64,000 bases of DNA. Origin: a bacterium. Its GTDB lineage: Bacteria > Bacillota > Clostridia > Lachnospirales > Lachnospiraceae. The stretch spans positions 584,876-648,875 of the forward strand of contig JAMPFT010000001.1 in assembly GCA_023664305.1 (NCBI GenBank). The letters are read 5' to 3'. Shown in pieces: positions 10,077 to 64,000 of this stretch (the stretch's first letter is position 1; every line of letters starts with the position of its first letter). The notes under the pieces were generated by a model that was not told where the DNA came from, did not search any database, and saw only the letters and a program-made list of their open reading frames with translations. A program made the translations under genes and the position numbers.

Positions 10077-10078
10077 GC

Positions 10079-12891: not shown

Positions 12892-12918
12892 TCTCAAACC
12901 GCCTTTCTATTTGAATTT

Positions 12919-13041
12919 TTAAACCTTGCGCCGTTTTACGCCATACTTTGTCCTCATTTCCGCCAAAGCCGTTCTGGCATCTTTGACCTGTCCGTTTTCG
13001 ATTTGCTGTTCTGACAGTTCAATATCTCTGTATACGGAAAT
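12919..13041 (-). pseudogene. Remnant resembling the C-terminus of a type II antitoxin
   Basis: Directly after the amber stop of the GNAT gene, and in the same frame, a 40-codon stretch reads ...ELSEQQIENGQVKDARTALA... and ends ...KYGVKR-RKV-stop. This looks like the amphipathic toxin-binding tail of a Phd/RelB-type antitoxin. The DNA-binding N-terminus is missing and there is no start signal. It is best explained as debris of an earlier insertion between iolB and iolD. The family call is by eye and tentative. Confidence 0.45.
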
Positions 13042-13506
13042 CTACAGCTTTCTTTCCAGCATAATAAAATCTTCATTTCTCCACTTTTCCAGAAAGCCAA
13101 GCTGCTCAAACAAGCTGATGGCCGGGTTATCTCTGGCAATATTATCACAGACCGCGGAGATCCCCTGTCTTTTCGCCTCGTCGAGCAAAAGCAGCAGCCC
13201 GCTTCTTCCAAATCCTCTGCCCCTGTAACAATGCCGGATGATAATATTGCAAATGTAGCATTGAAATTCTTCGTCAAAGTGGAATGCAATTTCACCAACC
13301 GCGGCATTGTCCTCCATGGAATATAAGTACCTGTAAAAGCGTCTTTCGGGATGCTCCACCCAATACTCATACCAATGATCCCAACGTTCGGGCGAAAAAT
13401 CAATCGTCCCGCCCCATTTTGCGTTGTACGACATGGTTTTCTCATCGGCCAGCAATTCTTGTCTGAAGGTAAGCTCTTCCCGCTTTGGCTTTACCAGCTT
13501 GAGCAT
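13042..13506 (-). CDS. GNAT family N-acetyltransferase
   Basis: 154 residues; the acetyl-CoA pyrophosphate loop is CYRGRGFGRSG and the conserved motif B region is ARDNPAISLFEQLGF. The ATG follows GGAGGCTGATAT and lies 14 bases after the iolB stop, so it is co-translated in the operon. The substrate is unknown. It resembles the single-domain GNATs common in accessory regions and has no obvious role in inositol breakdown. An antitoxin-like remnant follows its stop in the same frame. Confidence 0.85.
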   Translation of the reverse strand: MLKLVKPKREELTFRQELLADEKTMSYNAKWGGTIDFSPERWDHWYEYWVEHPERRFYRYLYSMEDNAAVGEIAFHFDEEFQCYICNIIIRHCYRGRGFGRSGLLLLLDEAKRQGISAVCDNIARDNPAISLFEQLGFLEKWRNEDFIMLERKL

Positions 13507-13520
13507 ATATCAGCCTCCTG

Positions 13521-14309
13521 TCAATAGTCCGAATGATCCAGCCAGTCATGCGCCGGTTCCACAATCCGCGTCTTCCGCCAGGGATCGCCCTCCAGATGCC
13601 GGATCAGCCAGACATAATACATCCGATAGCCCGGGGCCGCCGCCTGCTGGTGGGCGTGCATGGGCGTGATGGCCAGGCAGCCCTGATCCTCCACCCGGAA
13701 GCACTCCTCTCCCACAAAGCCCACGCCGAAGCCCTGGGGCTTGTCAAACTCGTAGTAATACAGCTCCGGCTGGGGATGATAGTGGGGCGGATAGCTGGAC
13801 CAGCAGCCCGGCTTATGGAAGACCTCCCCCATCACCAGATTGGAGTAAGGCGCGTTTTCGTAGTCAAAGACCGTCAGCACCTGCCGGTGTGCCGTGCCCT
13901 CCCACTGCGTTTTGCCAAACTCCTGTAAGGTACACATTTCCGGCGTATAAAACACCGTGTCGAACTTTTCTTTATTCGTGGTCTGCTGGATCAGCACCCG
14001 GCTGTCCTCTCCCGCCGTGATCGTGATTTCCTTTCCCCGGCAGCAGTGCAGGACATAAGGCTTATCCAGAAAGACGCTGCGCCGCTCCGCGTCCTTCTCT
14101 TTTCCCTCAAAACCGAAAACCACCTTTCCGGCCAGCAGCATCAGCGCCGTCTCCTTCTCAGGCGCCAGAATCGCAAGCCGCTGCCCGGCGGACAGCTTCT
14201 GCACCCGCACGTCCATCAGCATCCGGCTGTTTTTCCCCTGGCCGCCCTCGCCTTTTTCCTCGCAGAGAATTTTTTCTCCCTTTTCGTTAAATTCCGGATT
14301 TTCGTACAT
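13521..14309 (-). CDS. iolB: 5-deoxy-glucuronate isomerase
   Basis: A 262-residue bicupin of the KduI/IolB family. It converts 5-deoxyglucuronate to 5-dehydro-2-deoxygluconate. The metal site is visible in SYPPHYHPQPELYYYEF and ITPMHAHQQAAAPGY. The ATG at 14309 follows AGGGGATCGGAC. The sequence around the metal site differs from the classical Bacillus-type motif (PPHKHD...EEIYY), which is instead carried by the second IolB at 53.0 kb. It lies between two GNAT genes inside the iol operon. Confidence 0.88.
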   Translation of the reverse strand: MYENPEFNEKGEKILCEEKGEGGQGKNSRMLMDVRVQKLSAGQRLAILAPEKETALMLLAGKVVFGFEGKEKDAERRSVFLDKPYVLHCCRGKEITITAGEDSRVLIQQTTNKEKFDTVFYTPEMCTLQEFGKTQWEGTAHRQVLTVFDYENAPYSNLVMGEVFHKPGCWSSYPPHYHPQPELYYYEFDKPQGFGVGFVGEECFRVEDQGCLAITPMHAHQQAAAPGYRMYYVWLIRHLEGDPWRKTRIVEPAHDWLDHSDY

Positions 14310-14378
14310 GTCCGATCCCCTTTCCTTTTTCCCTTTTACTGCTCTAAGCAAATTGATTCACTTTATAAAGGAATTGCC

Positions 14379-14783
14379 CTATACCCTTTTTCGGAAAAAA
14401 TATTCAGCGTACCCGTCAGCGATATTTTCATAACTGCCTACCACCTCGTAATGCAGCGCTTCGTAAAATTCTTTTCCCTGCCAGCTGAACGTATCAAGGC
14501 GGATGGTATTTACACCCATTTCTTTGGCGCGCGCTTCCATTTCTTTGATCAAAAAGGTTCCATACCCTTTTCTTCTATAATCGGCATCGACAAACACCGT
14601 TGAGACATATAAGATTCGGAACGCAGTCACACAGGCATCTAATCCCGCGATTATTTTTCCATCTTCCTCTACGCCGATTTGAATTTTTCCATCTGTCTGA
14701 TTTACGATATATTTTTCATCATATTCCCTGAGTCGATTTTCGATTTCATTCATTTGAAATTCATTTAAATTTACGATTCTCAT
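14379..14783 (-). CDS. GNAT family N-acetyltransferase
   Basis: 134 residues from the ATG at 14783, which has AGGAGG at a seven-base spacing; the ATG six bases upstream sits too close to that site. The acetyl-CoA loop is ADYRRKGYGTFLI, and the C-terminal motif FYEALHYEVVGSYENI is typical of the family. It lies between iolC and iolB in operon orientation and is more A+T-rich than either. It is unrelated in detail to the GNAT at 13.0-13.5 kb, so it is not a local duplication. Confidence 0.85.
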   Translation of the reverse strand: MRIVNLNEFQMNEIENRLREYDEKYIVNQTDGKIQIGVEEDGKIIAGLDACVTAFRILYVSTVFVDADYRRKGYGTFLIKEMEARAKEMGVNTIRLDTFSWQGKEFYEALHYEVVGSYENIADGYAEYFFRKRV

Positions 14784-14785
14784 AG

Positions 14786-14875
14786 TCATACCTCCTGGGC
14801 AGTCAGCTTACTCGTGCTGTCGTTGTTTTCAGCGGGTACGCTATTCCCAAAAGTGATTTCCTTTTCTTCCGTCAC
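14786..14875 (-). CDS. Possible 29-codon ORF coupled to iolC
   Basis: A GTG overlaps the iolC stop as GTGA, and the frame runs 29 codons (begins V-T-E-E-K-E-I-T-F-G-N) to a TGA two bases before the GNAT start at 14783. The tight overlap suggests translational coupling. It could equally be the N-terminal remnant of a gene displaced by the GNAT insertion. No homologue is recognised. Confidence 0.25.
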   Translation of the reverse strand: MTEEKEITFGNSVPAENNDSTSKLTAQEV

Positions 14876-16095
14876 GCCCGCGCCACCATCTCGCCGTACT
14901 TCTCTTTCTCCTCCCGGATAAACCGCTCCACCTCCTCCAGCGTCGGCATGGCCGCCGAGCAGCTGTGGGCGGAAATCAGCATGGAGGCCGACGCGGAACC
15001 GTACTCCAGCGCCTGCGGCACGCTGCAGCCGTCGATCAAAGCCCGAATAAAGGAGGACGCATACCCGTCCCCGCCGCCGAAGCCCTTCAGGGCGTTCGTG
15101 GGAAAAGGCTTTACCGCGTAATGATTCCCGTCACAGGTATAAGCGGTGGAGCCCTCCTTGCCGTGCTTGATCACTACGATCTTACAACCGTAAGACTGCC
15201 AGTATTTTGCGCTCCTGCCGTCCCTGGAAGAACCGGCCTCCGACTGGTTCCCTTCCATGGAATTGTTCTTTGTAAAATCAGTTTTTGAAGGCCTATCCCC
15301 ATCCGGATCCCCCAAAGAACCATTCTCCGCAGAATTGACTCTCGAAGAAATGCCTTTCACCGAATCGTCCTCCGAAGGATTCTTCTCTGCAGAACCGGAT
15401 CCCGAGAGACTGCTTTCTGCAAGATTTTCCTCCCCGGAAAGTCCGGTCAGCCGCTCCGTCAGATCGAACTCCTCCCGGGAACCCAGGATCAGATCGCTCT
15501 CCTTTGCCACTGTGGAATAATAAATCGATATCTCGTCCGGGTTCTTCCAGGTGTACGCCCGATAATCGATGTCAAAGATCACTGCGACCCCGTTCTTCTT
15601 CGCCAGCATCACAGCCTTCAGCGCCGCCTCCCTGGACGGGCTGGCCGCCAGCGCCGTCCCGGAAATTAACAGCGCCTTCGCCTTTTTGATATACTCCTCG
15701 TCCACATTCTCCGGCTCCAGCATCAGATCCGCCACGCCGTCCCGGTACATCAGAATCCGGCTCTCCGAGGGACTTAAAATCTCCGTGAAGGTCAGCCCCA
15801 GATTCTCGCCGTTTTTACAGCGGGTAATGTGGCTGGTATCAATCCCCTCCTTCTCGAAATAGTGCGTCACATAGTCTCCGAACTGATCGTCGGACACCCT
15901 GGCGATAAACCCGACCTTCTTCCCCAGCCGCGCCATCCCCACCGCGATATTGGCGGGAGAGCCGCCCAGATACTTGTTGAAATTGCTGCTCTCCTCCAAA
16001 GGACGGTTCAAATCCACCGGATTAAAATCGATGGCCACCCTGCCCAGCAAAATCAAATCGTACTCCTTTGCCGGATCAAACGTAATATACTGCAT
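14872..16095 (-). CDS. iolC: 5-dehydro-2-deoxygluconokinase with a long loop insertion
   Basis: A PfkB/ribokinase-family kinase that phosphorylates 5-dehydro-2-deoxygluconate. The N-terminal motif NFNKYLGGSPANIAVGMA and the catalytic loop FGGGDGYASSF are intact. The protein has 407 residues against the usual 325-340: about 75 Ser/Asp/Gly/Asn-rich residues (219-296) are inserted between REEFDLTERL and KIVVIKHGKEG. The ATG at 16095 follows GGAG at seven bases; longer readings upstream run through a degenerate pyrimidine repeat. It is the first iol gene of the operon. No IolR-type regulator or inositol transporter is visible in the window. Confidence 0.9.
   Translation of the reverse strand: MQYITFDPAKEYDLILLGRVAIDFNPVDLNRPLEESSNFNKYLGGSPANIAVGMARLGKKVGFIARVSDDQFGDYVTHYFEKEGIDTSHITRCKNGENLGLTFTEILSPSESRILMYRDGVADLMLEPENVDEEYIKKAKALLISGTALAASPSREAALKAVMLAKKNGVAVIFDIDYRAYTWKNPDEISIYYSTVAKESDLILGSREEFDLTERLTGLSGEENLAESSLSGSGSAEKNPSEDDSVKGISSRVNSAENGSLGDPDGDRPSKTDFTKNNSMEGNQSEAGSSRDGRSAKYWQSYGCKIVVIKHGKEGSTAYTCDGNHYAVKPFPTNALKGFGGGDGYASSFIRALIDGCSVPQALEYGSASASMLISAHSCSAAMPTLEEVERFIREEKEKYGEMVARA
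15208..15441 (-). repeat. Degenerate coding repeat inserted in IolC
   Basis: A low-complexity insert of about 75 codons with a loose 10-residue period (S-A-E-x-x-S and similar, for example SAEKNPSEDD then SVKGISSRVN then SAENGSLGDP). DNA words such as TTCTCCGCAGAA and TTCTCTGCAGAA recur. The frame is kept and no stop occurs. Confidence 0.7.
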
Positions 16096-16297
16096 CGTAC
16101 CACTCCTTTCCTTGCTGTCCCTTTTCATTTCCTGTTTTATTTCATTTCCCTGTTCCATTCCAGTTCCCTGCTTCGCTTCAGCGCCCTGACGCGCATACCA
16201 ATCAATATCTGCCCTATGATGACAGACCGGCAGGTCTGGCATTGGAAGCTTACTTTCATACTTACATTCTCTGCTTTCCCGCAAACCGGAAGCCGCG

Positions 16298-16948
16298 TTA
16301 CCAAAAGCCGAACGGAAGCACCGCTTCCATGACGATATCGAAAACAACGGCAATTCCCAACGCGGCTATGGTTTCTTTCACGGATTTATGTAAAACAAGT
16401 ATTCCAAACAGCAGCATCAGGACGTTAAGCCATGACCTGATATCGATATAGAACATCCCATACGCGAAAGCGGTGTTCAGCAGAGCACCCAAAATGCCCG
16501 AGGAAAGAACAAGGGCAATGAAGCCTGTCCCCTTTGCATACCAGCTTAAAAAGGCGAGAAAGGGAGAGGCGATCGTAAAGGCAATCCAAATGAAAGCATA
16601 GCTTTTTGGAAAGAACCCCGCCACAAAATTACTGTACAGGTAATAGCTTGCCACAAATCCCGAAAAAAAGAAAAAGACATTGACGGCAGCCCTGACAGGG
16701 GTATGGCTATATACCGATATGCAGACCGCGATAACAATCCACGGCGCAAATCCGCCTAAAAAATTATGAAAATCCAGAGTGTCGTCAATCACCTGCAGCA
16801 GTGCCGGAAGCTCTGCCTGCCGATAGTCCAAATATTTCGAAAACCATCCCATACCGATTCCAAAAAGCAAAATGCCTATCGTGATAAGGGCCTGCCTTTT
16901 GATGGAATCTGATTTTTGAGGCGCCCGTATTTTATCTAAAAAATCCAT
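16298..16948 (-). CDS. Uncharacterised multi-pass membrane protein
   Basis: 216 residues with about six or seven predicted membrane helices (for example ALITIGILLFGIGMGWF, WIVIAVCISVYSH, VNVFFFFSGFVASYYLY, FIALVLSSGILGALL). No charged catalytic motif, ABC or transporter signature is recognisable. The ATG follows AAAGGT. It lies upstream of iolC in the same direction, but the 202-base gap, which holds only a degenerate CATTTCCTG-like pyrimidine repeat, suggests a separate unit. Function unknown. Confidence 0.65.
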   Translation of the reverse strand: MDFLDKIRAPQKSDSIKRQALITIGILLFGIGMGWFSKYLDYRQAELPALLQVIDDTLDFHNFLGGFAPWIVIAVCISVYSHTPVRAAVNVFFFFSGFVASYYLYSNFVAGFFPKSYAFIWIAFTIASPFLAFLSWYAKGTGFIALVLSSGILGALLNTAFAYGMFYIDIRSWLNVLMLLFGILVLHKSVKETIAALGIAVVFDIVMEAVLPFGFW

Positions 16949-53026: not shown

Positions 53027-53821
53027 TTACCTGCTCAGAATCCACTCGTGCTCCGGATCGTTACTTCTGTGAAAGCCCTGATAATCCCCTGCCATAAGCC
53101 ATAAAAAGTAGGTTTCGTAGCCGGGTATGGAAACCGTGGTGTGATACCCCTTCGGAAATTCCACCAGCTCGTCCTGCTTTACCCGGTAAGCCTCGTCGAT
53201 CTCGCCGTCGGAGGTATAAAGGCACTGCACCGCGAAGCCCTGCTCCGGCTGAAACAGAAAATAATAGATTTCCTCGGCGATGCATTCCCCGGGCATGTTA
53301 TCCTCGTCGTGCTTATGGGGCGGGAACCCCGCCCAGTTTCCCGGCGTCACATAAGCCTCCCCCACCGTCAGGGATACGGCGTTGCTGTTCTGATCGATGA
53401 GAAAGCTTGTCTGACGCTGGTACGGCTCCTCTCCCAGCAGCTTTAACACCGCGTGTTCCTCTCTCAAAAGCTGCGGGATTGTCTTCTCCTGCACCGGCGT
53501 CGCGCAGACCGCAATCTTCACATGCTCCTGCGCCTCGATCTCCAGCTTCCGGTCTCTCGGCATATAAAAGCATTCCGCCCTGCGGTTCTCAAACACATTT
53601 TTTCTGTTTCCCACATCCTGCCAGTCAATTCCTTCCGTCCTGACGTTACAGCGGCCCTCCAGCATGATAAACGCCGTTTCCTTATCCTGCGTATCAAATT
53701 TGTGCTTTCCGCCCGCCTCCAGCTCAAGGATGCCGAACTCCAGCCTTTTTAAGGAACTCTCCCCGATTTTGCAGATCGGCGTATACCCGACCGTACTCCG
53801 ATAACTTTTTTTATAGCTCAT
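53027..53821 (-). CDS. iolB: Second IolB-type 5-deoxy-glucuronate isomerase
   Basis: 264 residues, bicupin of the IolB/KduI family. The metal site reads PPHKHDEDNMPGECIAEEIYYFLF, the classical Bacillus-type IolB pattern, followed by GFAVQCLYTSDGEIDEAY and GYHTTVSIPGYETYFLWLMAG. GGGAGAGGAAG precedes the ATG at 53821. It is the last gene of the nine-gene operon and may act on 5-deoxyglucuronate or a related deoxyuronate made by that pathway, separate from the iol operon at 7-16 kb. Confidence 0.85.
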   Translation of the reverse strand: MSYKKSYRSTVGYTPICKIGESSLKRLEFGILELEAGGKHKFDTQDKETAFIMLEGRCNVRTEGIDWQDVGNRKNVFENRRAECFYMPRDRKLEIEAQEHVKIAVCATPVQEKTIPQLLREEHAVLKLLGEEPYQRQTSFLIDQNSNAVSLTVGEAYVTPGNWAGFPPHKHDEDNMPGECIAEEIYYFLFQPEQGFAVQCLYTSDGEIDEAYRVKQDELVEFPKGYHTTVSIPGYETYFLWLMAGDYQGFHRSNDPEHEWILSR

Positions 53822-53864
53822 ATTCTTCCTCTCCCAAAGTCCTCTGTGCTCCGATTTTGTCTTT

Positions 53865-55304
53865 TTATAAATACCGCAAAAGCTCTTCCGCCGTACAGAC
53901 AATCCCGATATCCGCATAATCGAAGATCGGCGCTTTTGCATCGGGATTCACGGCGATCACGGTCCCTGACCGCCGCATTCCCGCGATATGGTGTACCGCG
54001 CCGGAGATCCCCACGGCAATGTAGACGGCGGGGCTGACGCTTTTCCCGGTCATTCCCACCTGCCTTTCATAGGGCAGTATTTCCGCGTCCACGGCGGCTC
54101 TCGACGCCGCAAGCTCCCATCTCGGGCCGCCGGGATATCGGTTCCTGGCGTCAACCGCCGCCTTCAGCTCCCGCGCCGCCCCCTTTGCCCCCCTGCCCAG
54201 GGAAAGCACCGCCTGTGCGCCTCCTGTCTCAGCGGTGCGTACCGTCGCCATCGTGGGACGCGCGGTACAGCGAATCCCGGCGATCACCTCCCCCGAGCAG
54301 GCCGGACGGTACATAAAAAGCTGCCCGCCGTCCGTCTCCAGCGCGGTGCAGTCCGCGCAGAGCCCCGTCCGCAGGAGTGCCGCGGCCTGAGGCGCCGTCC
54401 GTTTGCTCCAGGGATCGCTTCCCCAGAGCACCGCCTCCGGCCGCTCTCTCCTTACCGCCTCCACAAAGCGCTCTAAAAATGCTCTGCCGCAATCCTCTTC
54501 CGGAGCCGGTCCGGGGAACAGACGGATATCGTCGCTGATGCTCTCCGCAAAGCTTCTCGGCGTCTCTCCCACGATCCAGACCCCCCGCAGCCTTTTGGCC
54601 GATCTTTTCCGCGGTTTCTCAAGGAGCTGTTCCTTCAAAAGCCCCTGTCTGACCGCCTCCTGAAATTCCTCCGCGGGAAGGAAGCGGCATTTTCTTTTCC
54701 CCTCCTCGTTTTTCACGGAGGAGAAGACTTTGGTAGGCGAGCCTTTTTCTCCGAGCCGCCCCGGATCCGCGTCAATATCCTCCGCCCTCCACAAAATCAC
54801 CTGTCCCTCCCGGGAACGGAGACCGGGAAGCCGCAGACGGTTGATCCGCTCCACCGTGATCAGCGCAGGGCTCGCTGCGCGCTGCTCTCCCATGCTTCTG
54901 GTATCGCAGACAATCTCCTCTCCCACGCTTTTGATCTCCATAACGTTCGTAATCAGGGAAAGTCCGGCTAATGCCGCCAGAGCAGGACCCGTCTGCGCCG
55001 TATCGCCGTCCACGGTCTGTCTTCCGCAGAACACAAGCTCCGGCGAAAGCCTTTTTAACGCCTGCGACAAAGCGTAGGCAGTCGCAAGGGTATCCGCCCC
55101 CGCAAACTCCGGCCCGCACAGCAGATAAGCCTTCTCCGCTCCCAGCCTCGTCAGCGAAAGCAGCATTTCTTCGGTGGCTTCCGGCCCCATGGAGAGCAGG
55201 ATCACTTCGCCATCCGGAATCCGCAGCGCCGCCTCATAGGCGCAGGCGTCAAAGGGGTTCAGCTCCCCGGCCGCCGTCCTTTTGACACATACCACGATTC
55301 TCAT
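53865..55304 (-). CDS. Fused electron-transfer flavoprotein EtfB-EtfA
   Basis: 479 residues. The N-terminal ~245 resemble EtfB (MRIVVCVKRTAAGELNPFDACAYEAALRI, FCGRQTVDGDTAQTGPALA). The C-terminal ~235 resemble EtfA with the FAD-binding motif YIAVGISGAVHHIAGMRRSGTVIAVNPDAKAPIFDYADIGIV split over the end. Separate subunits total about 580 residues, so the fusion is compact. It overlaps the kinase upstream by four bases (ATGA). It would accept electrons from the GlcD/GlcF-like dehydrogenase of the same operon; bifurcation with NAD+ or ferredoxin is possible but unproven. Confidence 0.85.
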   Translation of the reverse strand: MRIVVCVKRTAAGELNPFDACAYEAALRIPDGEVILLSMGPEATEEMLLSLTRLGAEKAYLLCGPEFAGADTLATAYALSQALKRLSPELVFCGRQTVDGDTAQTGPALAALAGLSLITNVMEIKSVGEEIVCDTRSMGEQRAASPALITVERINRLRLPGLRSREGQVILWRAEDIDADPGRLGEKGSPTKVFSSVKNEEGKRKCRFLPAEEFQEAVRQGLLKEQLLEKPRKRSAKRLRGVWIVGETPRSFAESISDDIRLFPGPAPEEDCGRAFLERFVEAVRRERPEAVLWGSDPWSKRTAPQAAALLRTGLCADCTALETDGGQLFMYRPACSGEVIAGIRCTARPTMATVRTAETGGAQAVLSLGRGAKGAARELKAAVDARNRYPGGPRWELAASRAAVDAEILPYERQVGMTGKSVSPAVYIAVGISGAVHHIAGMRRSGTVIAVNPDAKAPIFDYADIGIVCTAEELLRYL

Positions 55305-56779
55305 AGGCCGCTCCTGCTCCGGTAGATTGGCGCAAGGGCGTCGTGGACGGCCACATACTCCTCAAACAGTTTTTCATACCTGGCTGTATGCTCCGCGATC
55401 GGCTCTGTCACGCTTTCCTCTTTCACGCAGGCCCTGACGGCCGCCCCCGGGTTTTCAAACACGCCGACGGCCACGCCGGCCAGCATCGCCGCGCCCAGAG
55501 AGGAGTCGCTGCTCACCGTCTTGACCAACTCCATCCCCAGACAGTCCGCCAGGATCTGCCGCCACAGCTCTCCCTTTGCCCCGCCGCCGATCACGGTGGC
55601 TTTTCCCGCAAGAGCGATCCCCAGGCTCTCCAGCGTTTTTCTGGAATGCAGCAGGGACAGGGCCACGCCCTCCAGCACGCTTCTGGTAAAATGCGCCCGC
55701 GTATGGGTGGCGCGGACCCCGGTGAAGCTGCCGCAAAGGGCAGGGTCTCCGTAGGGCGTCAGCTCCCCGTTCAGATAGGGATGGTACAAAAGCCCCTCGC
55801 AGCCGATCGGTATCTTTTCCGCTCCCCGGTTCAGCTCTTCGTAGCCGCCGCCAAAGGTATCCCGATACCAGCGGTAGGAGCTTGCGGCCGCCTTCGTGGC
55901 CGTCCCCGGATACCACAGCCCTTCGGCAACGTGCGCATAATTGACAAGCTGCGGACTGGGGCAGGGTCTGTCCGTGATAACGCAGATCCTCCCCGCGGTG
56001 GCCAGCTTTACCGTCACATCCCCCGGATGCACCGCCCCGGCGGCAAATACCTCCAGCGCCGTATCCGTAGTGCCGCAGATCACCGGCGTCCCCTCCAAAA
56101 GCCCCGTTTTCTCCGCCGCCTCCTTCGTGATGCCTCCGGCCGTATCCGCAGGCTTTACCACCTGCGGAAGCCACCCTTTTTCAATACCGGCGGTCGCCAA
56201 CAGCTCCCGGCACCATTCCCCTTTCGCGCTGTCAAAGAGCATACTGCCCTGGGCCTCAATATAGTCCGTGCAGGAAATGCCGGTCAGGCAGTAGCGGATA
56301 TAGTCCTTCTCGAAAAAAATATGTCTCACCCTCCGAAACAGCTCCGGCTCGTTCTCCCTTACCCACAGAATCTGAGGCAGCGTCCAGATCGTGTCCGGCC
56401 TGTGAAAGCACTTCTCAAAAAGGAAATCGCCCTGCTCCTTACGCAGCCTTTCCGCCTGCTTTAAGGAACGGGAGTCCGTCCAGTGGATCGCGGGTCTTAA
56501 GGGCTTACAGTCCTGATCGCACATGACCCAGGTATGTGTGGCGGAATCGACGGCAACCGCCAGAATATCCTCCGCCGCAATCCCGGATTTTTCAAGCAGT
56601 CCCTTTGTATTTCCGCAAAACGCCCGGTTCCAGTCCTCCGGCTCCTGCTCGCACCAGCCGAGCTTCGGATACGCGGTGGGATATTCCACACTATGCTCTG
56701 ACACAATATTTCCGCGGACGTCAAGCAGGGTAGCCTTTGAGGAGCCGCCTCCAAAATCAACGCCCAGTAAGTATTTCAT
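55301..56779 (-). CDS. FGGY-family carbohydrate kinase, xylulokinase-like
   Basis: 492 residues. N-terminal phosphate motif LLGVDFGGGSSKATLLD, catalytic Asp region HWTDSRSLKQAERL, and the C-terminal ATP motif VIGGGAKGELWRQILAD. FGGY kinases act on xylulose, rhamnulose, fuculose, glycerol and others; this one is nearest xylulokinases by eye. AGGATACGGGG precedes the ATG, and the gene overlaps the PfkB gene end by 23 bases. Confidence 0.88.
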   Translation of the reverse strand: MKYLLGVDFGGGSSKATLLDVRGNIVSEHSVEYPTAYPKLGWCEQEPEDWNRAFCGNTKGLLEKSGIAAEDILAVAVDSATHTWVMCDQDCKPLRPAIHWTDSRSLKQAERLRKEQGDFLFEKCFHRPDTIWTLPQILWVRENEPELFRRVRHIFFEKDYIRYCLTGISCTDYIEAQGSMLFDSAKGEWCRELLATAGIEKGWLPQVVKPADTAGGITKEAAEKTGLLEGTPVICGTTDTALEVFAAGAVHPGDVTVKLATAGRICVITDRPCPSPQLVNYAHVAEGLWYPGTATKAAASSYRWYRDTFGGGYEELNRGAEKIPIGCEGLLYHPYLNGELTPYGDPALCGSFTGVRATHTRAHFTRSVLEGVALSLLHSRKTLESLGIALAGKATVIGGGAKGELWRQILADCLGMELVKTVSSDSSLGAAMLAGVAVGVFENPGAAVRACVKEESVTEPIAEHTARYEKLFEEYVAVHDALAPIYRSRSGL

Positions 56780-57701
56780 CCCCGTATCCTCTTTCCTTCA
56801 AAAAACTCCTTACCGTCTCCGGATCCGGCACGGATTCTCTCGCGCCGATCCCCGTACACTTCAGGGCCGACGCCGCGCTTGCAAAAATGCAGCACCCCCT
56901 GTAAGAAAAACCCTTTACCAGCCCGGCGGCAAACGCCCCGTGGAATACGTCCCCGGCCCCGTTGGTATCCGCCGCCTCCACCGGGAACGCAGGATACCGC
57001 TCCGACGTTTTCCCGTCGTACAGAATGCCTCCCCTGCTTCCGGCCGTCACTACGACAATTTCCGGGCGATACCGCTTATACAGGCGCTTTGCCGCATCCT
57101 CAATATTGCCGCAGCCCGTATGTCCCAGGGCAAATTCCTCCGAGGGAATCATAATATCCGTCCGGATCAGCAGCCGCTCCACTCCCTCGTATAGACCGCC
57201 GCAGTCATACAAAACCTTCGTTCCGTTCTCCCGGGCAATCCTGCAGGCTTCCTCCGCCGCAGCTATCTCGTTCCCGTCGATCATGAGAAGCTTTGCCGAG
57301 GCCACCGCCTTTCGGCTGCCGTCCTGCAGCTTAAGGGGCGGCAGCGTCCCTCTGTCAAAAACACAGGTGCGGGAAGCCGTCCGCGCGGAAATCCAGATGA
57401 CGGACGTAAAGCTGCGGTATCCCGGCCTGATCTCCACACAGTCCGTATTCACCCCGTACCTCTTAAAATCCTGCAACAAAAACCGTCCGCCGCCGTCATC
57501 CGACAGGACCCCGATAAATCCCACCGCCGCCCCCAGGCGTCCCGCCGCCACAATGCCGGTGGCGGCAGGGCCTCCGCCTGCCGTCCGGCTTTCCAGCGCC
57601 CTCAATTTTGTATCTTCCGCGGGATAGTCGGGAACGATCATCAGCGTATCCGCCACACAGGCCCCGATGCCCGCGATCTCCGTTTTCTGCCCGTCTGCCA
57701 T
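56757..57701 (-). CDS. PfkB-family carbohydrate kinase
   Basis: 314 residues from ATG 57701; a GTG at 57737 overlapping the stop of the upstream gene is an alternative. Signature 1 region GGGPAATGIVAAGRLGA and the catalytic signature DTNGAGDVFHGAFAAGL are clear. The presence of a second kinase of another fold in the same operon suggests either a bisphosphate intermediate or two substrates. Position and fold would suit a keto-deoxygluconate- or fructose-phosphate-type kinase. Confidence 0.86.
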   Translation of the reverse strand: MADGQKTEIAGIGACVADTLMIVPDYPAEDTKLRALESRTAGGGPAATGIVAAGRLGAAVGFIGVLSDDGGGRFLLQDFKRYGVNTDCVEIRPGYRSFTSVIWISARTASRTCVFDRGTLPPLKLQDGSRKAVASAKLLMIDGNEIAAAEEACRIARENGTKVLYDCGGLYEGVERLLIRTDIMIPSEEFALGHTGCGNIEDAAKRLYKRYRPEIVVVTAGSRGGILYDGKTSERYPAFPVEAADTNGAGDVFHGAFAAGLVKGFSYRGCCIFASAASALKCTGIGARESVPDPETVRSFLKERGYGDEILTGR

Positions 57702-57729
57702 CTGATAACCATGCCTTTCTGAAAACTTC

Positions 57730-58815
57730 CTATTCACCCAAAATCAGCTCTTCCAACGCCGTGATCTTTACCTCATCCTGCTCTACTGCCTTCAGGGAAG
57801 CATATTCGGACACGCTTGCGGTCACAATGGTATCCGCGTGGACGCTCTTCGCGTTTTCGATGCGGTTCTTTGCCACCTTCGTCATGGCCTCCGGCATCCA
57901 TTCCCGCATCAGAAGGTTTCCCGCCCACATGGTATCCCTGCCGTGACAGAGCATTTCCCCGCACACCGCAAACGCGCCGATCACCTCTCTGACCTCGTCC
58001 GTCTCGCCCAGATTCCGGGCAAGCTGAAAAGGATCCTGACAGACAACCTCTCTCTTTGTCTGCGCAGCTGTGAGCGCGCCGCTCTTTAAAAGTTCCTTTG
58101 CGTAAGCGGGAAAGGTGACGATCTGAGCCGTCAGTTCCACGCCCCACTCTCCGTATTCTCTTTTCAGGATTCCGGCGTCCTGGGGATCAAAGGCAACTAC
58201 CCGCGCAAAGTCGTTGACCGCCGCGGCGCAGGCCTCCATCTGCTCCTTCGTCTCCCTTGCCGCGCCGATCAGATATTCCAGCTGCTGCCCGCTGGGCGGT
58301 TCCTTTTCCAGCACGGTAAAGCTCACTCCCGCCTTTTCCAGCACCCGAATGACGTTCACCGCCGTATGAGGCGCTCTGTAAACGGCGTCCACGCCCAAAA
58401 ACAGCAGAAGGTCCGTCTTCTCCCCGTGCCTGCCCATCGCTTCCCGAAGCGCCCCGTCAATCTCTGTCTCCCCGTAGGCGTTTCCCGTCTCCAGACAGTT
58501 GTCCGTCAGTTTTCCGATATATTCCGGCAGTCTGCCGGACAGCGCTGCGTCCAGTCTTGCCTCCTTCACAAACAGGACCGGATCCCAGCCTGTCACACAC
58601 TCCTTCGTGCAGGCGCCGCAGCAGGCGCATTCATATACGTTGTCAATCGCGTCCTCCGGCGGAACCGCGCCCCGGTTCACCAGGGAAAGCCCCAGCGCCC
58701 TGGCCCTGGCCGTATTTCTCTCCAACCCCGTCGCGTTGCCGATCGGACAGATGTGATGGCACATCCAGCAGAAACGACAGGCTTCCACATGCTGTTTACT
58801 CTTTTCTGACATCAT
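57730..58815 (-). CDS. Iron-sulfur (GlcF/CCG-type) dehydrogenase subunit
   Basis: 361 residues from ATG 58815 (58812 also in frame). Two [4Fe-4S] sites near the N-terminus: CRFCWMCHHICPIG and CACCGACTKEC. The rest resembles the Cys-rich/heterodisulfide-reductase-like domain of GlcF, though canonical CCG boxes are reduced (VAFDPQDAG, CGEMLCHG). It would relay electrons from the flavin subunit encoded just upstream to the Etf fusion. The dispersed repeat forms its leader and ribosome binding site. Confidence 0.82.
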   Translation of the reverse strand: MMSEKSKQHVEACRFCWMCHHICPIGNATGLERNTARARALGLSLVNRGAVPPEDAIDNVYECACCGACTKECVTGWDPVLFVKEARLDAALSGRLPEYIGKLTDNCLETGNAYGETEIDGALREAMGRHGEKTDLLLFLGVDAVYRAPHTAVNVIRVLEKAGVSFTVLEKEPPSGQQLEYLIGAARETKEQMEACAAAVNDFARVVAFDPQDAGILKREYGEWGVELTAQIVTFPAYAKELLKSGALTAAQTKREVVCQDPFQLARNLGETDEVREVIGAFAVCGEMLCHGRDTMWAGNLLMREWMPEAMTKVAKNRIENAKSVHADTIVTASVSEYASLKAVEQDEVKITALEELILGE

Positions 58816-58822
58816 ATTCGTA

Positions 58823-58905
58823 TACCCCCTGCCCTCTTCATAAGAGGGTGTGTAAACACCCCTCTTTGGCATTGATTCAATATTTGGAAGTTTACTTCCA
58901 AACTT
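58823..58905 (-). repeat. Dispersed repeat, copy 3
   Basis: About 83 bp, nearly identical to copy 2 (45511-45592), with both hairpins. On the minus strand it ends GGCAGGGGGTATA, a few bases before the start of the iron-sulfur subunit gene. It lies between two genes of the same operon. Confidence 0.92.
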
Positions 58906-58924
58906 TTACCCTCCTCCTGCGGAA

Positions 58925-60355
58925 TCAAAGTCCCAGCTTAAACGGATTCATGATTCCGTTCGGGTCAAGCTTACTTTTCAGTCCCTCAAACACCTGCATC
59001 GCCGGTCCGTACTGCTCCTTCATCAGGCGTCCGAGCTTGATTCCCACGCCGTGGTGGTCGTTCACCACGCCTCCGTGGGCCAGCGCGGCGCGCACTCCCG
59101 TCGTCCACACCTCCTGATGCAGACGCAGCGCCTCCACCGGATCCTCCGGCACATTTTCTCCCTCGATGATAAAGCGGTCATACACCATCGCTCCCCACTC
59201 GTACCAGTGGGAGAAGTGCGCGATAAATCTTGCCTGGGGAAACCTCGTCTCGACCGCTTCCTTCATGGCCCAGTAGATCTCTTCAATCTTATCGTAGGGC
59301 GCGATGGTATCCATGGTGCCGAACATCTGCGGAATATCCATCATATGCCCCGGATAGAAAAAGGTGATCTTTTCGTTCCACCACTTTTCCCCGTATTCGC
59401 TGCCGAGATCCTCCGCGCCGTATTTTGCAAAGGTGCTTAACAGAATTTTTTCCTCGACCTCCACCATCTCCCGGCAGCCCTCGACGGCCACATTCATGAA
59501 GGCCCCCGGCTTTTCCACGCCCACAATCTTTTTGATCAGGGTCGCCGTCTCCGCCGGGTCGTACAGACGCATGACCGAGGGCTTGAACTTCTGCAGAAGC
59601 TCCCTTGCCGCCCGAAAGGCCCCGCTCATATCCTGGAACAAAAAGCCGCGGAAGCGTCTTTCCTCCGGCTGATCAAAAATACGGATCTGGGCCTTTGTGA
59701 TCACGCCCAAAGTCCCCTCGGAGCCGATAAAGATCTGGTTCAGATCCGGGCCCGCCGCGTGCTTCGGCGCAGGGGAGGTATAGATGATATCTCCGCCCGG
59801 CAGCACCACCTCCATCTGTAACACCATATCGTCGATCTTGCCGTATTTTGTGGATACGACGCCGATTCCCCGGTGTGCCAGAAAGCCCCCCACCGTGGAG
59901 CAGGTCAGAGAAGAGGGATAATGCATGGTAGCCTTTCCCACCTCGTTTGCCGCCCACTCGATATGCTTGTAGATCGCGCCCGTCCCGCACTCTATGTACA
60001 TTCCTTCCGTATTGACTTTATAAATTTTGTTCATTCTCTTTGTGTCGAGAACGATTCCGCCGCACACGGGAAGCGCGCCGCCCTGCGTGCCGCCGCCCGC
60101 TCCCCATGTGGTCACGGGAAGCTTATAATAATTGGCAATCTTTAGGACCTTTGAGGTTTCCTCTGCGTTCTCCGGCGCCACCACAAAATCCGCCTCCGGC
60201 ATTCTTCTCCCCCGGTCCGCCCACATACGCGACAGCCAGTAGTAATCCACGCTGTGCGTGATCCTGTCGATCGGCTTCACGGAGCAGTTTTCTCTTCCCA
60301 CCGCGTCCTCCAGCTCCGTCAGGATCATGGAAAACAGAAATTCGTTCCTCTCCAT
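58925..60355 (-). CDS. FAD-linked oxidase, GlcD/lactate dehydrogenase type
   Basis: 476 residues. PCMH-type FAD domain: PVTTWGAGGGTQGGALPVCGGIVLD, then SSLTCSTVGGFLAHRGIGVVS and FIGSEGTLGVITKAQIR. C-terminal FAD-oxidase domain with metal/substrate residues HGGVVNDHHGVGIKLGRL. Such enzymes oxidise 2-hydroxy acids or related alcohols; with the iron-sulfur subunit and EtfBA in the operon it resembles Etf-linked lactate dehydrogenase complexes. The natural substrate is probably a sugar acid or polyol of this pathway. GGGAG precedes the ATG. Confidence 0.9.
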   Translation of the reverse strand: MERNEFLFSMILTELEDAVGRENCSVKPIDRITHSVDYYWLSRMWADRGRRMPEADFVVAPENAEETSKVLKIANYYKLPVTTWGAGGGTQGGALPVCGGIVLDTKRMNKIYKVNTEGMYIECGTGAIYKHIEWAANEVGKATMHYPSSLTCSTVGGFLAHRGIGVVSTKYGKIDDMVLQMEVVLPGGDIIYTSPAPKHAAGPDLNQIFIGSEGTLGVITKAQIRIFDQPEERRFRGFLFQDMSGAFRAARELLQKFKPSVMRLYDPAETATLIKKIVGVEKPGAFMNVAVEGCREMVEVEEKILLSTFAKYGAEDLGSEYGEKWWNEKITFFYPGHMMDIPQMFGTMDTIAPYDKIEEIYWAMKEAVETRFPQARFIAHFSHWYEWGAMVYDRFIIEGENVPEDPVEALRLHQEVWTTGVRAALAHGGVVNDHHGVGIKLGRLMKEQYGPAMQVFEGLKSKLDPNGIMNPFKLGL

Positions 60356-60399
60356 CGCTTTTTCTCCCTTTCTCTCCTGTTTTATAAACTCCCGGCCCT

Positions 60400-61809
60400 C
60401 TATGCCTTTTTCAGTGTACCGTCCGTCTTCAGATTGGGAAAATACTTGCAGAACTCCCGAAGCTCTTTCGTATAGTCTCCCTCCACCTCGACGAAATGGT
60501 GAATGTACGGCCCGTCCAGAAGCCGGTCCTCCAACGCCTGCAGATCCTTAAATTCTCCCCACAGATAGGTCCCGTGGGTCTCCGGCCCGGGCACGGTCCT
60601 GCAGACGTCCGCCAGCATCATATAGCTGCCGTTCTCCTGATCCATCCTCGCCACCGTGTAAACGCCGTCCTTCGCCCGAAACCACTCTCTCTGGTTGACC
60701 AAAAGGGCCGGACATTCCGGCGCTTTTACCGACAGCGGAAAAGGGCCGCAGTGCCACAAAAGCTCCGCGTTTCTGTTCTCCGGGTGGCGCACCGTAAACT
60801 CTCCCAGGAAGGGTCTGTTCTTTCCGAATGCCGCCGAGGATAACAGGGCCATGGTCAGCGCGCAGTGCATGTCGCTTTCACAGCTGATCGGGTATCCCAA
60901 ATCGCTTAAGATTCCGTAGACGGCACAGGGCGCAAGCCCGTCAAACATCACGGGCGTCGCCGTCCAGCATTCCGCGCTGATCACATCCAGCCGAAACTCC
61001 TCAAACAGTCCGATATAAGTGACTGCAAGACACGCCATCCGCTCCAGATACTGCGGCGTCAGATTATCCGTCTGATACCTCGTCCTGAAAATTTCGACAT
61101 ACTTCCCGATTTCCTCCGCCTTTTCCTCCCGGGCCTTCTGAAAACGGTCCTGCAGAACCGCCAGATTGATCGGAATGATCTTGATCCCGAATTTCTGCAT
61201 CAGCTCCCCCTCGTTCCAGATCACGGAGAAAAAGGGCGCCGGCCTCGTTCCCACCTGGCCGACACGCAGACCCGAAAAATTTTTCACCATGCAGGCCACT
61301 CTTGCAAACCGCTCAAAGGCTTCCCGAAACTCGTCGGATTCCACCCTGCAGCACGGAATATGGGAAAAAGGAATGTTGTACCGCTGCAGCTGTCTGGATA
61401 CCCCGAACAGTCCGCACTGGGAATCCGTCGGCCGCATTCCGTGCTCATAATATTCGTCGTCTAAGGGCGCCCACAGCAGCACAGGCTTTCCCAGCGCTCT
61501 GGCGATATCCGCGGCAATCTCTTCGTTTCCGAAATTGCAGTTGATGATAAAAACGGCGTCTACCTTTTCCTCCGAAAATCTCTCGATCACCTGTCCGGCC
61601 GACTCGTCGTCAAACATCAGATCATTGCAGCCGATCCCGCGAATATCGACAAATTCAACGTTTTCGTCCGCAAAATGCTTCTCAATATACTCCACAAACC
61701 GATGGCCTCTCTCCTCCGCCGAAACCCAGGTCAGAAAGGTTTTCGCCGGACGGTTCGTGGTGTTGCGCCTCATAGGCGCGAGTCCGATTTTAATTTTGTA
61801 CTGTAGCAT
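60400..61809 (-). CDS. L-fucose/L-arabinose isomerase-like protein
   Basis: 469 residues. Fold of the FucI/AraA superfamily: an N-terminal cobalamin-like domain (KIKIGLAPMRRNTTNR, VEFVDIRGIGCNDLMF), then LRVGQVGTRPAPFFSVIWNEGEL and the metal-site region SAECWTATPVMF, CESDMHCALTMALLSSA. Members isomerise aldoses to ketoses or only share the fold. AGGGGAAGAG precedes the ATG. Adjacent aldolase and kinases make an aldose-ketose isomerase step likely. Confidence 0.8.
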   Translation of the reverse strand: MLQYKIKIGLAPMRRNTTNRPAKTFLTWVSAEERGHRFVEYIEKHFADENVEFVDIRGIGCNDLMFDDESAGQVIERFSEEKVDAVFIINCNFGNEEIAADIARALGKPVLLWAPLDDEYYEHGMRPTDSQCGLFGVSRQLQRYNIPFSHIPCCRVESDEFREAFERFARVACMVKNFSGLRVGQVGTRPAPFFSVIWNEGELMQKFGIKIIPINLAVLQDRFQKAREEKAEEIGKYVEIFRTRYQTDNLTPQYLERMACLAVTYIGLFEEFRLDVISAECWTATPVMFDGLAPCAVYGILSDLGYPISCESDMHCALTMALLSSAAFGKNRPFLGEFTVRHPENRNAELLWHCGPFPLSVKAPECPALLVNQREWFRAKDGVYTVARMDQENGSYMMLADVCRTVPGPETHGTYLWGEFKDLQALEDRLLDGPYIHHFVEVEGDYTKELREFCKYFPNLKTDGTLKKA

Positions 61810-61845
61810 GTCTCTTCCCCGCTGTAAATGTAGTTTCCGAATTGT

Positions 61846-62688
61846 CTATCTTGCTTTCCCGTCCGCCCCCGTCAGACAGATCTTTCTGACCGCCAGCTCC
61901 TTTACCGCCTCGATGGGACGCTTCATAAACAGGTCGATTGCAATACTCCTGTCGGGCGATTTCAGGATTTCCTCCGTGCCGTCGGCAAAGGCGCAGCACA
62001 CATCCGTTCCGATGTTCATTTTGCGGATCCCCGCCCGAATCGCTTCCTTTACCTGATGATCCGGAATCCCGGAGCCCCCGTGGAGCACCAGCGGGATTCC
62101 CCCCGCAGCCTCCCGGATTCTGCCGACCCGTTCCAGATCCAGCTTCGGTTCCTTTTTGTAATGTCCGTGGGCGTTCCCGATCAACACGGCCAGACATGTC
62201 ACCCCGGTCTGTTTTACAAAGGCCGCGGCCTCCTCAGGATCCGTGTATTCCTCCATCGTATCGTCGTTTACGCTTCCGATATGGCCCAGCTCCCCTTCCA
62301 CGCCGACTCCTACGCAGCCGCACAGCTTCACGGCGTCGGCGGTAAGCTGTGCGTTTTCGGCAAAGGGACGGACGGAGCCGTCCAGCATGATACCGGTTGC
62401 TCCCCATCGCAGCGCCCGCATGACTTCCGTTTGCGAGGCTCCGTGATCCAGGTGAAAGCAGACCGGCACGGAGGCCTTTCTCGCCGCGGCGACGATGACC
62501 GGCGCCAGATAATATCCGCACTCTTCATTGATCAGTCTGGGATACACCTGGAGGATAACCGGCGCTCTTTGCTCCTCCGCCGCCTTCACCACGCCCATCA
62601 CGGTCTCCATGTTATACACATTGAAAGCGGGAATGCAAAATCCGCCCTCCTCCGCCAAAGCAATTATTTCCTGCAGCCGAACTAACAT
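61846..62688 (-). CDS. Class II fructose-bisphosphate aldolase family protein
   Basis: 280 residues. Metal-binding motifs: VCFHLDHGASQTEVMRAL (His and catalytic Asp), VEGELGHIGSVND, NAHGHYKKEP, VLHGGSGIPDHQVKEAI and MNIGTD. Family members cleave fructose-, tagatose- or 5-dehydro-2-deoxygluconate-type phosphates; IolJ belongs here. It could serve either this operon or the iol operon, which has no aldolase of its own. It overlaps the GH3 gene by seven bases. Confidence 0.93.
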   Translation of the reverse strand: MLVRLQEIIALAEEGGFCIPAFNVYNMETVMGVVKAAEEQRAPVILQVYPRLINEECGYYLAPVIVAAARKASVPVCFHLDHGASQTEVMRALRWGATGIMLDGSVRPFAENAQLTADAVKLCGCVGVGVEGELGHIGSVNDDTMEEYTDPEEAAAFVKQTGVTCLAVLIGNAHGHYKKEPKLDLERVGRIREAAGGIPLVLHGGSGIPDHQVKEAIRAGIRKMNIGTDVCCAFADGTEEILKSPDRSIAIDLFMKRPIEAVKELAVRKICLTGADGKAR

Positions 62689-64000
62689 GACTCTTTCTCC
62701 TCCTCCGCTTCCGTTTCCACTTCCGCCCGCAGCGGCAGATTCGGATTGGAACCGGCCAAAATCGTAACCTTTGCCGCTTCCACCTCATACTTTTCCTTTT
62801 GCGAGTAAATCCTTAATTCGTCAAACCCGAGCTTAAATTCCACCTTTTTGGTTTCATGGGGCCTGAATTTAAGCTTTCGGTATCCCTTCAGCTCCAGCGT
62901 CCTTCGCCGGACGGTGTTGCCGCTTCCCTTTATGTACAGCTGTACCGTTTCCATGCCCTCTACCGGGGAAACGTTGCTCACCGTCACCGTTACCAGAAAT
63001 CTGTTCTTCGCCTGCTTTTCCACGCAGATATCGTCGTATTCGAATTTGGAATAGGACAGTCCGTAGCCGAAGGGATACAGCACCTTCTTCTCTACATCCT
63101 GATAGTTGTAGCTGTGATCGTCCTCGATCACACCGTCTTTGCGGACGCCGATCCGGTTATAGTAGACAGGCAGACAGCCCGCGGACGTCGGGATCGAGAC
63201 AGACAGCCTGCCCGAAGGATTTACCTTTCCCGTCAGGATATCGAACAGGGCATCGGCTCCCTGCTGGCCCGAGTACCACACCGCGAGCAGCGCGTCGGAA
63301 AGCCGGTCGGCCTCGTTGAGGATATAAGGGCGTCCCGCGACCAGAACCGCGATGACCGGCTTCCCCGTCTCCTTCAGCTTTCTCAAAAACTCCTCCTGAT
63401 TTCCGGGAAGCCTTAAATCCGCCACGTCAACGCCCTCGCCGCAGTCCACATAGCTGTCTGAGGATACCATGCCGCCGCTCTTTTTGTCGTAAACCGCTTT
63501 CCCTACAAAGCCGGAGGAATTTCCGCCGACGGTAACGATTGCCACATCGCAGTCTTTGTACAGCGCAAGCGCGTGCCCGAAATCCTCCGTGCTTCCCTCA
63601 AAATCCCAGCCTGCCGAATAACTGCACGCCGCAAAGCCCTCCTCGAACCGCTGTCTTATGCTTCGGTTTTCCTGCTCGGAGCGAAACGCGGTATAGGAGC
63701 CCAGCTGATAGTAAACGCTTGTGGCGTGAACGCCGAAAAGGGCTACCCTGGTCTCCGCCTTCAGGGGAAGAATCCCGTTGTTTTTCAACAACACCGCCGA
63801 CTGCGCGGACGCCTCGTAGGAAAGCTTCTTTTGCTCGCCGGAGGCCAGATATTCCTGCAGGCCGTTGTCCTCCTCCAGATAGGGATGATCGAAAAGCCCC
63901 AGCTCAAGCTTCTTCTCCAGGATTCTCAAAACGGCCCTGTCAACATACCGCTCCTCGATGATTCCGTTTTCCACCGCCCCCACGAGGCTTTCATAAACCC
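62682..64000 (-). CDS. GH3 beta-glycosidase, C-terminal part (5' end outside window)
   Basis: The frame is open to the window edge, so only the C-terminal ~440 residues are visible. Present are the end of the catalytic barrel, the GH3_C domain (QSAVLLKNNGILPLK, PVIAVLVAGRPY, ADALFDILTGKVNPSGRLSVSIP) and the fibronectin-III-like domain (PFGYGLSYSKFEY, EGMETVQLYIKG). GH3 enzymes remove beta-linked glucose or xylose. The nucleophile Asp lies upstream of the visible part. It is the first visible gene of the nine-gene operon and probably starts the pathway by freeing a sugar or cyclitol. Confidence 0.93.
   Translation of the reverse strand, partial: VYESLVGAVENGIIEERYVDRAVLRILEKKLELGLFDHPYLEEDNGLQEYLASGEQKKLSYEASAQSAVLLKNNGILPLKAETRVALFGVHATSVYYQLGSYTAFRSEQENRSIRQRFEEGFAACSYSAGWDFEGSTEDFGHALALYKDCDVAIVTVGGNSSGFVGKAVYDKKSGGMVSSDSYVDCGEGVDVADLRLPGNQEEFLRKLKETGKPVIAVLVAGRPYILNEADRLSDALLAVWYSGQQGADALFDILTGKVNPSGRLSVSIPTSAGCLPVYYNRIGVRKDGVIEDDHSYNYQDVEKKVLYPFGYGLSYSKFEYDDICVEKQAKNRFLVTVTVSNVSPVEGMETVQLYIKGSGNTVRRRTLELKGYRKLKFRPHETKKVEFKLGFDELRIYSQKEKYEVEAAKVTILAGSNPNLPLRAEVETEAEEEKESC

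Follow-up and report, generated by a model that had tools for sequence, protein, structure and literature searches.

A conserved operon of gut Clostridia that may link an electron transfer flavoprotein to the breakdown of sugars or sugar acids

A nine-gene operon in a Lachnospiraceae genome

We analyzed a stretch of 64,000 nucleotides from a Lachnospiraceae genome (GenBank assembly GCA_023664305.1, contig JAMPFT010000001.1, positions 584,876 to 648,875), hereafter the window, and focused on nine open reading frames (ORFs) located on its minus strand at 53027-63998. The ORF listing and Pfam confirmed what an original prediction, made from the sequence alone, had described: nine genes of the families first named, all in one direction and tightly packed, with intergenic gaps of -23 to +52 nt. 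In operon order, the genes and the short names used for them are as follows.

62682..63998, minus strand: GH3 (glycoside hydrolase family 3), beta-xylosidase-like glycosidase (Pfam; best PDB match, beta-xylosidase 7zb3)
61846..62688, minus strand: ALD, class II aldolase (PF01116), YdjI-like (Pfam; best PDB match, YdjI 6ofu)
60400..61809, minus strand: ISO, fucose/arabinose-isomerase-like aldose-ketose isomerase, distant relative of SftI (NCBIfam and profile search)
58925..60355, minus strand: GLCD, FAD dehydrogenase of the AGPS/YgcU type (Pfam FAD_binding_4/FAD-oxidase_C; PDB and YgcU comparison)
57730..58872, minus strand: GLCF, Fe-S protein, partner of GLCD (Fer4_8; weak GlpC-type matches)
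56757..57737, minus strand: PFKB, PfkB-family sugar kinase (Pfam; best solved relative, sulfofructose kinase YihV)
55301..56779, minus strand: FGGY, FGGY carbohydrate kinase, xylulokinase-like (Pfam; XylB model)
53865..55304, minus strand: ETF, compact EtfB-EtfA fusion of 479 aa (Pfam ETF and ETF_alpha; PDB matches)
53027..53821, minus strand: IOLB, KduI/IolB-family isomerase paralogue, likely start at 53821 (Pfam; TIGR04378)

Conservation and distribution

The operon is real and conserved, and eight of its nine genes, the GH3 glycosidase excepted, recur together. A scan of genome contigs with the electron transfer flavoprotein (Etf) fusion as query returned 42 loci, of which two were divergent (L073 from Spirochaetales and L074 from Methylacidiphilum) and the other 40 came from Clostridia. 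GLCD was found in 31 of these 40, and 30 of the 31 also carried GLCF, ALD, PFKB, IOLB, FGGY, and ETF; ISO was additionally present in 22 of the 30 loci holding all seven of these core genes. The set that the original prediction had proposed to look for in other genomes thus recurs widely. One GLCD locus (L048) was without ALD and PFKB, and its genome, the completeness of which is not stated, yielded no close ISO and no ALD match better than 37%. The remaining nine Clostridia loci held only the later part of the set, on contigs that end upstream. All 40 were titled as metagenome-assembled genomes or uncultured organisms, a herbivore host was named in 22 titles (counting "Lapin" as rabbit), and caecum, colon, or rectum appeared in 20 of the 21 titles giving both host and gut site.

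A survey of 391 genomes of the class pointed in the same direction. GLCD was detected at 81-100% identity in 26 of them (some matches being partial), followed by a single match at 52% and a pair at 33-34%. Leaving aside a partial and weaker match in G635, 25 genomes had the Etf fusion, and 23 carried both genes, a co-occurrence far beyond chance. The Etf fusion genes of G505 and G580 each have one in-frame TAA, which may reflect sequencing error or decay. The surroundings of GLCD were fetched for 17 of the 25 GLCD genomes besides the window's own; all seven core genes were present in 13 of the 17 and ISO in 11, with ALD and PFKB missing from L105, and ETF, or FGGY together with ETF, missing from the stretch available in L112, L116, and L119.

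Across 63 loci, a set that includes five distant ones and in which presence was scored by tblastn, the counts were 58 for FGGY, 57 for ETF, 54 for IOLB, 52 for GLCD, 50 for GLCF, 48 for PFKB, 47 for ALD, and 34 for ISO (ALD in L055, L058, L059, and L115 and IOLB in L103 are overlapped by a longer antisense ORF and were counted by tblastn). Further genes were less frequent: DUF4867 (27), aldose epimerase (17), AEC carrier (9), FAD_oxidored (8), GH4 (4), and GH3 (1). The GH3 gene, which the original prediction had counted in the set, was thus found with it only in the window's own locus and is a local companion outside the conserved core.

The set is also divisible. In G557, ISO, ALD (73% identical), and PFKB lie in one place (L138) and GLCD, GLCF, IOLB, DUF4867, FGGY, and ETF in another (L105), so that there it consists of two modules, ISO-PFKB-ALD and GLCD-GLCF-IOLB-FGGY-ETF. 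Among 12 genomes with an operon lacking ISO, seven have an orthologue elsewhere (46-79%), two have matches of 23-25%, and three have none.

The window's operon copy looks acquired, since the Etf fusion was found in just one of 392 sampled genomes of the window's own order (E 1e-40), and neither a near ISO in 60 genomes of the same genus (best 39%) nor a near IOLB in 36 (best 31%) was detected. This copy belongs to a carbohydrate locus of ~22 kb. The part of GH3 in the window encodes the C-terminal 438 of 760 aa, as the gene passes the window end (full gene, L022:9558-11840). On its 5' side lie a GH4 and a GH88-family protein as well as five genes assigned by eye: a histidine kinase, a response regulator, a solute-binding protein, and two permeases. 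Elsewhere, NagB-like genes were observed near the operon or a stand-alone ISO in L058, L061, L064, L104, L108, L112, L142, L146, and L175, several of them with a NagA-like partner. A glycyl radical enzyme lies 3' of the operon at L055:13357-15885, along with what appear by eye to be an activase and a microcompartment shell-like protein.

A highly constrained flavoenzyme and its Etf

GLCD resembles alkyl-dihydroxyacetone-phosphate synthase (AGPS) and E. coli YgcU, not glycolate oxidase. Its best solved relatives were AGPS (139.6 bits), D-lactate dehydrogenases (119.2), and LctD (98.8), in this order. It shares 29% identity with YgcU over 493 columns and has NDHHGVG at the position of SHHHGVG in AGPS. 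A glycolate oxidase GlcDEF was rejected: GLCD scored 181.3 bits against the GlcD model (cut-off 567.9), GLCF scored 21.4 bits against the GlcF model (cut-off 333), and no separate GlcE gene was found among the nine operon proteins. For the dehydrogenase labeled "GlcD-like" in the original prediction, AGPS/YgcU-like is the better name.

Specifically, GLCD stands out by its conservation. The window's copy has a median amino-acid identity of 0.88 (range 82-91%) to 46 other copies, as against medians of 0.53-0.73 for the other seven core genes. Across 47 sequences, conservation reaches 97% or more at 314 of 476 GLCD positions (66%), compared with 18-30% of positions in the other seven; short or stop-containing copies were removed before these counts. 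Four-fold silent sites have an identity of 0.25 in GLCD, within the 0.19-0.27 of the other genes. Recent transfer was accordingly dismissed as the cause of the conservation, and because silent sites are as diverged as in the neighbors, the constraint sits on the GLCD protein, which these comparisons indicate to be far more strongly constrained than its neighbors. The alignments comprise 15 rows for GLCD (14 of 30 listed copies and the window), 19 for ETF (18 of 37 and the window), and 16 mixed rows for ISO, and exclude the stop-bearing tblastn spans of L048, L054, and L057 plus other rows.

The closest relatives of ETF appear to be the Etf proteins of bifurcating or confurcating complexes. Its top PDB matches were 5ol2, 7koe, 4kpu, 6fah, and 7qh2, all of which we take to be complexes of this kind, and the best EtfB match was LctB (102.5 bits). 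ETF also retains the GRQ...GDTAQ stretch, which we take as a bifurcation-related mark in Etf comparison.

Relatives of the sugar enzymes

ISO has no Pfam match. Its sole family match in NCBIfam is the sulfosugar isomerase family SftI, and a profile search gave a weak match to L-arabinose isomerase (6e-05). The aldolase ALD is closest to YdjI, the RefSeq name of which is octuluronate-1-phosphate aldolase. A DPR motif is present in KbaY and absent from both YdjI and ALD (the window's and five other copies). The arginine of this motif presumably binds the C6 phosphate in tagatose- and fructose-bisphosphate aldolases, and cleavage of the bisphosphate or tagatose-6-phosphate type was discarded for the lack of DPR in ALD. 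IOLB scored 226.8 bits against TIGR04378, above the cut-off of 205.

These relationships bring a sulfosugar pathway into consideration, such as sulfoquinovose breakdown similar to sulfo-EMP2. Besides the SftI match of ISO, the best solved relative of PFKB is sulfofructose kinase, DUF4867 (SftX) occurs in 27 of the 63 loci, and a gene of the L-sulfolactate/malate-dehydrogenase family lies beside the operon in three of the 63. Yet ISO reaches only 92.1 bits against an SftI cut-off of 700, and the dehydrogenase match is under its own (240 bits, cut-off 500). PFKB carries other residues at the positions of N109 and R138 of E. coli YihV, which we assume to be the sulfonate contacts. Moreover, DUF4867 is also common beside fucose-isomerase and FGGY genes; an association with these genes and with sulfoglycolysis is reported, and its function is left unresolved there (PMC11968277). 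The operon thus shares with sulfoglycolysis (sulfo-TAL, sulfo-EMP2) an isomerase fold family, DUF4867, and a kinase-aldolase logic, but misses the family cut-offs and the presumed sulfonate residues. We consider a sulfosugar pathway very unlikely, and sulfoquinovose was rejected as the substrate on the SftI cut-off and the YihV residues. A separate locus, L031, resembles a sulfoglycolysis cluster: it holds a nearer SftI relative (223 bits), a transaldolase-like gene, a split transketolase, and a gene that looks DUF4867-like by eye.

D-apiose was considered because AplK-, AptA-, and AptB-like genes accompany the ISO relatives found in the genus and order. In L024-L030, apart from the operon, an ISO relative (36-39%) accompanies a split transketolase and an FGGY kinase, with identities to the apiose cluster of E. 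coli SE15 of 44-48% for AptA, 34-37% for AptB, and 36-40% for AplK. The apiose pathway was rejected for the operon, as no transketolase is found among its nine proteins.

Inositol as a candidate substrate

The original prediction had read inositol-pathway chemistry into the operon, with a beta-glycoside of a cyclitol among the candidate substrates. The inositol reading did not survive the comparison with the canonical iol operon that lies separately in the window at 8291-16353, ~37 kb from the Etf-linked operon. Its genes were identified by match to the iol operon in L174.

8291-9511: IolG
10079-11071: IolE
10972-12897: IolD
13521-14351: IolB
14872-16353: IolC

This IolB and the IOLB of the Etf-linked operon share 27% identity. 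PFKB aligns with this IolC at 27-29% identity, solely in stretches of 100-133 columns, and scored 101.7 bits against the IolC equivalog with a cut-off of 300. Pfam and NCBIfam revealed no IolG, IolD, or IolE among the nine operon proteins. The two operons are alike in having an IolB-family protein and a PfkB kinase, and iol operons can carry a class II aldolase (L174), but they are separate sets of genes of low identity in the same genome. Despite the TIGR04378 match of IOLB, inositol or another cyclitol is strongly disfavored as the substrate and, in our judgment, extremely unlikely. Nothing that we found points to a cyclitol glycoside, and the GH3 gene is not conserved with the set.

A possible pathway for plant-derived sugars or sugar acids

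We tentatively propose that the operon serves to break down an aldose of plant origin, the foremost candidates being acidic aldoses such as a hexuronate or a related sugar acid. Deoxy-uronates and sugar acids, also named in the original prediction, are a possible and narrowly leading substrate class. The substrate, the individual reactions and the order in which they occur, and the direction in which electrons flow are all inferred from the sequences. In the first module, ISO would convert the aldose into a ketose, PFKB would phosphorylate the ketose at C1, and ALD would split the ketose-1-phosphate into dihydroxyacetone phosphate (DHAP) and an unphosphorylated three-carbon aldehyde. In the second, IOLB would isomerize this aldehyde, which for a uronate would mean converting tartronate semialdehyde into hydroxypyruvate. 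FGGY would phosphorylate the isomerized three-carbon piece, and GLCD-GLCF-ETF would carry out a two-electron step on the small acid, either free or phosphorylated, with NAD and perhaps also ferredoxin as partners in electron exchange.

The case for an acidic substrate is modest and rests on the TRAP contexts of L176 and L173, the AEC carriers, and the kind of chemistry that the closest relatives perform; these include enzymes for acid-ended sugars (YdjI, YihV, SftI, and KduI/IolB). Divergent copies of the set are informative in this respect. In L176/L180, with a GLCD of 57% identity, GLCF (26%), a 33% ALD, IOLB, and FGGY are retained and joined by a TRAP importer, a GldA-like protein, and a hydroxypyruvate-isomerase/IolO-like protein, and this importer suggests that the substrate is an acid. 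An IOLB relative (35%) likewise lies among TRAP genes in L173. In L175 (69% GLCD), GLCF, ALD, PFKB, IOLB, and FGGY are retained. The nearest solved relative of the GH4 proteins is an alpha-galacturonidase. In L145 (genome G488), ISO, ALD, and DUF4867 occur with an aldehyde dehydrogenase, an SDR, and a glycerate-2-kinase-like protein (88 bits, cut-off 550), and by eye with enolase-, KDPG-aldolase-, and AKR-like genes. The aldehyde dehydrogenase, glycerate-2-kinase-like, and enolase-like genes would fit a three-carbon fragment entering as glycerate or phosphoglycerate; this operon is perhaps another undescribed pathway.

Spelled out in full for a hexuronate, the route would run from uronate through ketohexuronate and its 1-phosphate to DHAP and tartronate semialdehyde; IOLB would then yield hydroxypyruvate, FGGY 3-phosphohydroxypyruvate, and GLCD-GLCF-ETF 3-phosphoglycerate, with electrons bifurcated to ferredoxin. 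AGPS-type enzymes bind the CO-CH2-O-phosphate end of DHAP esters, and 3-phosphohydroxypyruvate has the same end. We regard this complete scheme as improbable; if true, it would represent an electron-bifurcating phosphohydroxyacid reductase in sugar breakdown.

Several observations weigh against an acidic, Etf-dependent route. The ordinary hexuronate isomerase UxaC is present in 22 of 26 operon genomes versus 152 of 365 others (Fisher 2e-5), which would leave a common hexuronate with no need of a new route. The association may reflect a plant-fiber lifestyle only. No ETF was detected in the sequence available around the 57% and 69% GLCD copies, which indicates that Etf may not be essential, and L176 is without PFKB and ISO and has an aldolase of just 33% identity. 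FGGY scores best as a xylulokinase (XylB model, 380.1 bits, cut-off 380.25). The neighboring glycosidases tell in the same direction: a GalA-like GH2 (756 and 715 bits, cut-off 900) lies directly beside a stand-alone ISO in two of nine such loci (L139 and L143), and a third GH2 was seen by eye at a distance of ~9 kb; a GH4 of the alpha-galactosidase group (480 bits, cut-off 486) occurs in four of the 63 loci, with a further one above the cut-off in L181, which shares a contig with the 69% GLCD copy; and the GH88-family protein of L173, near the IOLB relative, is the beta-galactosidase BglB by NCBIfam (476 bits, cut-off 420), a model against which the window's GH88-family protein scored 77.5 bits.

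These galactosidase-type neighbors favor a neutral aldose such as galactose, which ISO would turn into tagatose, PFKB into tagatose-1-phosphate, and ALD into DHAP and glyceraldehyde, the second module proceeding through dihydroxyacetone or glycerol-like phosphates. The AGPS-like genes beside a glycerol-kinase-type FGGY in L101, L102, and L177, identified by similarity and by eye, would also suit it. However, glyceraldehyde needs no flavin or Etf step, the TRAP importer of the divergent copy suggests an acid, and among the 18 operon genomes searched, 12 have a galactokinase scoring above its cut-off. With any match counted, galactokinase is found in 17 of the 18, and a galactose route as a replacement of the Leloir pathway was rejected; galactose as such is retained among the candidates. 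A neutral aldose is, on balance, somewhat doubtful. The AGPS-like genes of L101, L102, and L177 are GLCD relatives of 32-35% that also have, by eye, a small DUF1667-like protein beside them; this gene company makes a link to glycerol metabolism possible.

Alternatively, two sugars of one glycoside, for instance an aldobiouronic acid, could be handled in parallel, with ISO and FGGY acting on a xylose-like aldose and IOLB, PFKB, and ALD plus GLCD on the uronate. The window's locus adds a beta-xylosidase-like GH3, GH4 and GH88-family proteins, and an importer, and FGGY falls almost at the xylulokinase cut-off. But the G557 genome encodes ISO next to ALD and PFKB and away from FGGY, and the glycosidase neighbors are not conserved, differing from locus to locus, so we consider this arrangement unlikely.

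Related systems and implications

Parts of the operon resemble known systems. The E. coli ygc cluster (YgcU, YgcQR, YgcE, YgcN/O) has an FAD dehydrogenase of the same type, Etf-like genes, and an FGGY kinase; here too an AGPS-like FAD enzyme, Etf, and FGGY are encoded together, a likeness of gene set alone. However, no isomerase, aldolase, PfkB, or IolB is annotated in the ygc cluster, its Etf is in two genes, and YgcN/O, YgcW, and transporters stand in place of GLCF. The ygc genes have only putative annotations in RefSeq, and the accessible portions of the literature searched gave no function for them. The electron-confurcating lactate dehydrogenase LctBCD-Etf (PDB 7qh2) also pairs a FAD_binding_4 dehydrogenase with Etf, but GLCD is nearer to AGPS than to LctD, and the operon has a fused Etf, an extra Fe-S protein, and sugar enzymes around them. 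Likewise, the E. coli ydj cluster encodes YdjI, the aldolase nearest to ALD and also without DPR, next to the PfkB kinase YdjH, but no Etf complex, FGGY, IolB, or ISO is annotated there.

In the accessible portions of the literature searched on its enzyme families, the ygc and ydj genes, sulfoquinovose, apiose, and fused Etf (including a sulfoquinovose review, PMC12890257; cow rumen, PMC13219744; and E. coli apiose, PMC13001218), the operon was not described. As far as this search extends, a conserved and undescribed Etf-linked pathway for sugars or sugar acids, as originally predicted, is upheld, while inositol chemistry and GH3 membership are not; the enzyme families themselves are known, and the class of pathway that they would form is the one argued above.

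We have thus described a recurrent catabolic operon, the marker dehydrogenase of which is found in 26 of 391 class genomes, in uncultured gut bacteria of plant-eaters. It joins flavin-based electron transfer and aldolase-type sugar splitting in one operon, and it would make testable the role of the E. coli YgcU/YgcQR/YgcE module, the role of DUF4867, and Etf-linked steps on plant sugars or sugar acids in hindgut bacteria.

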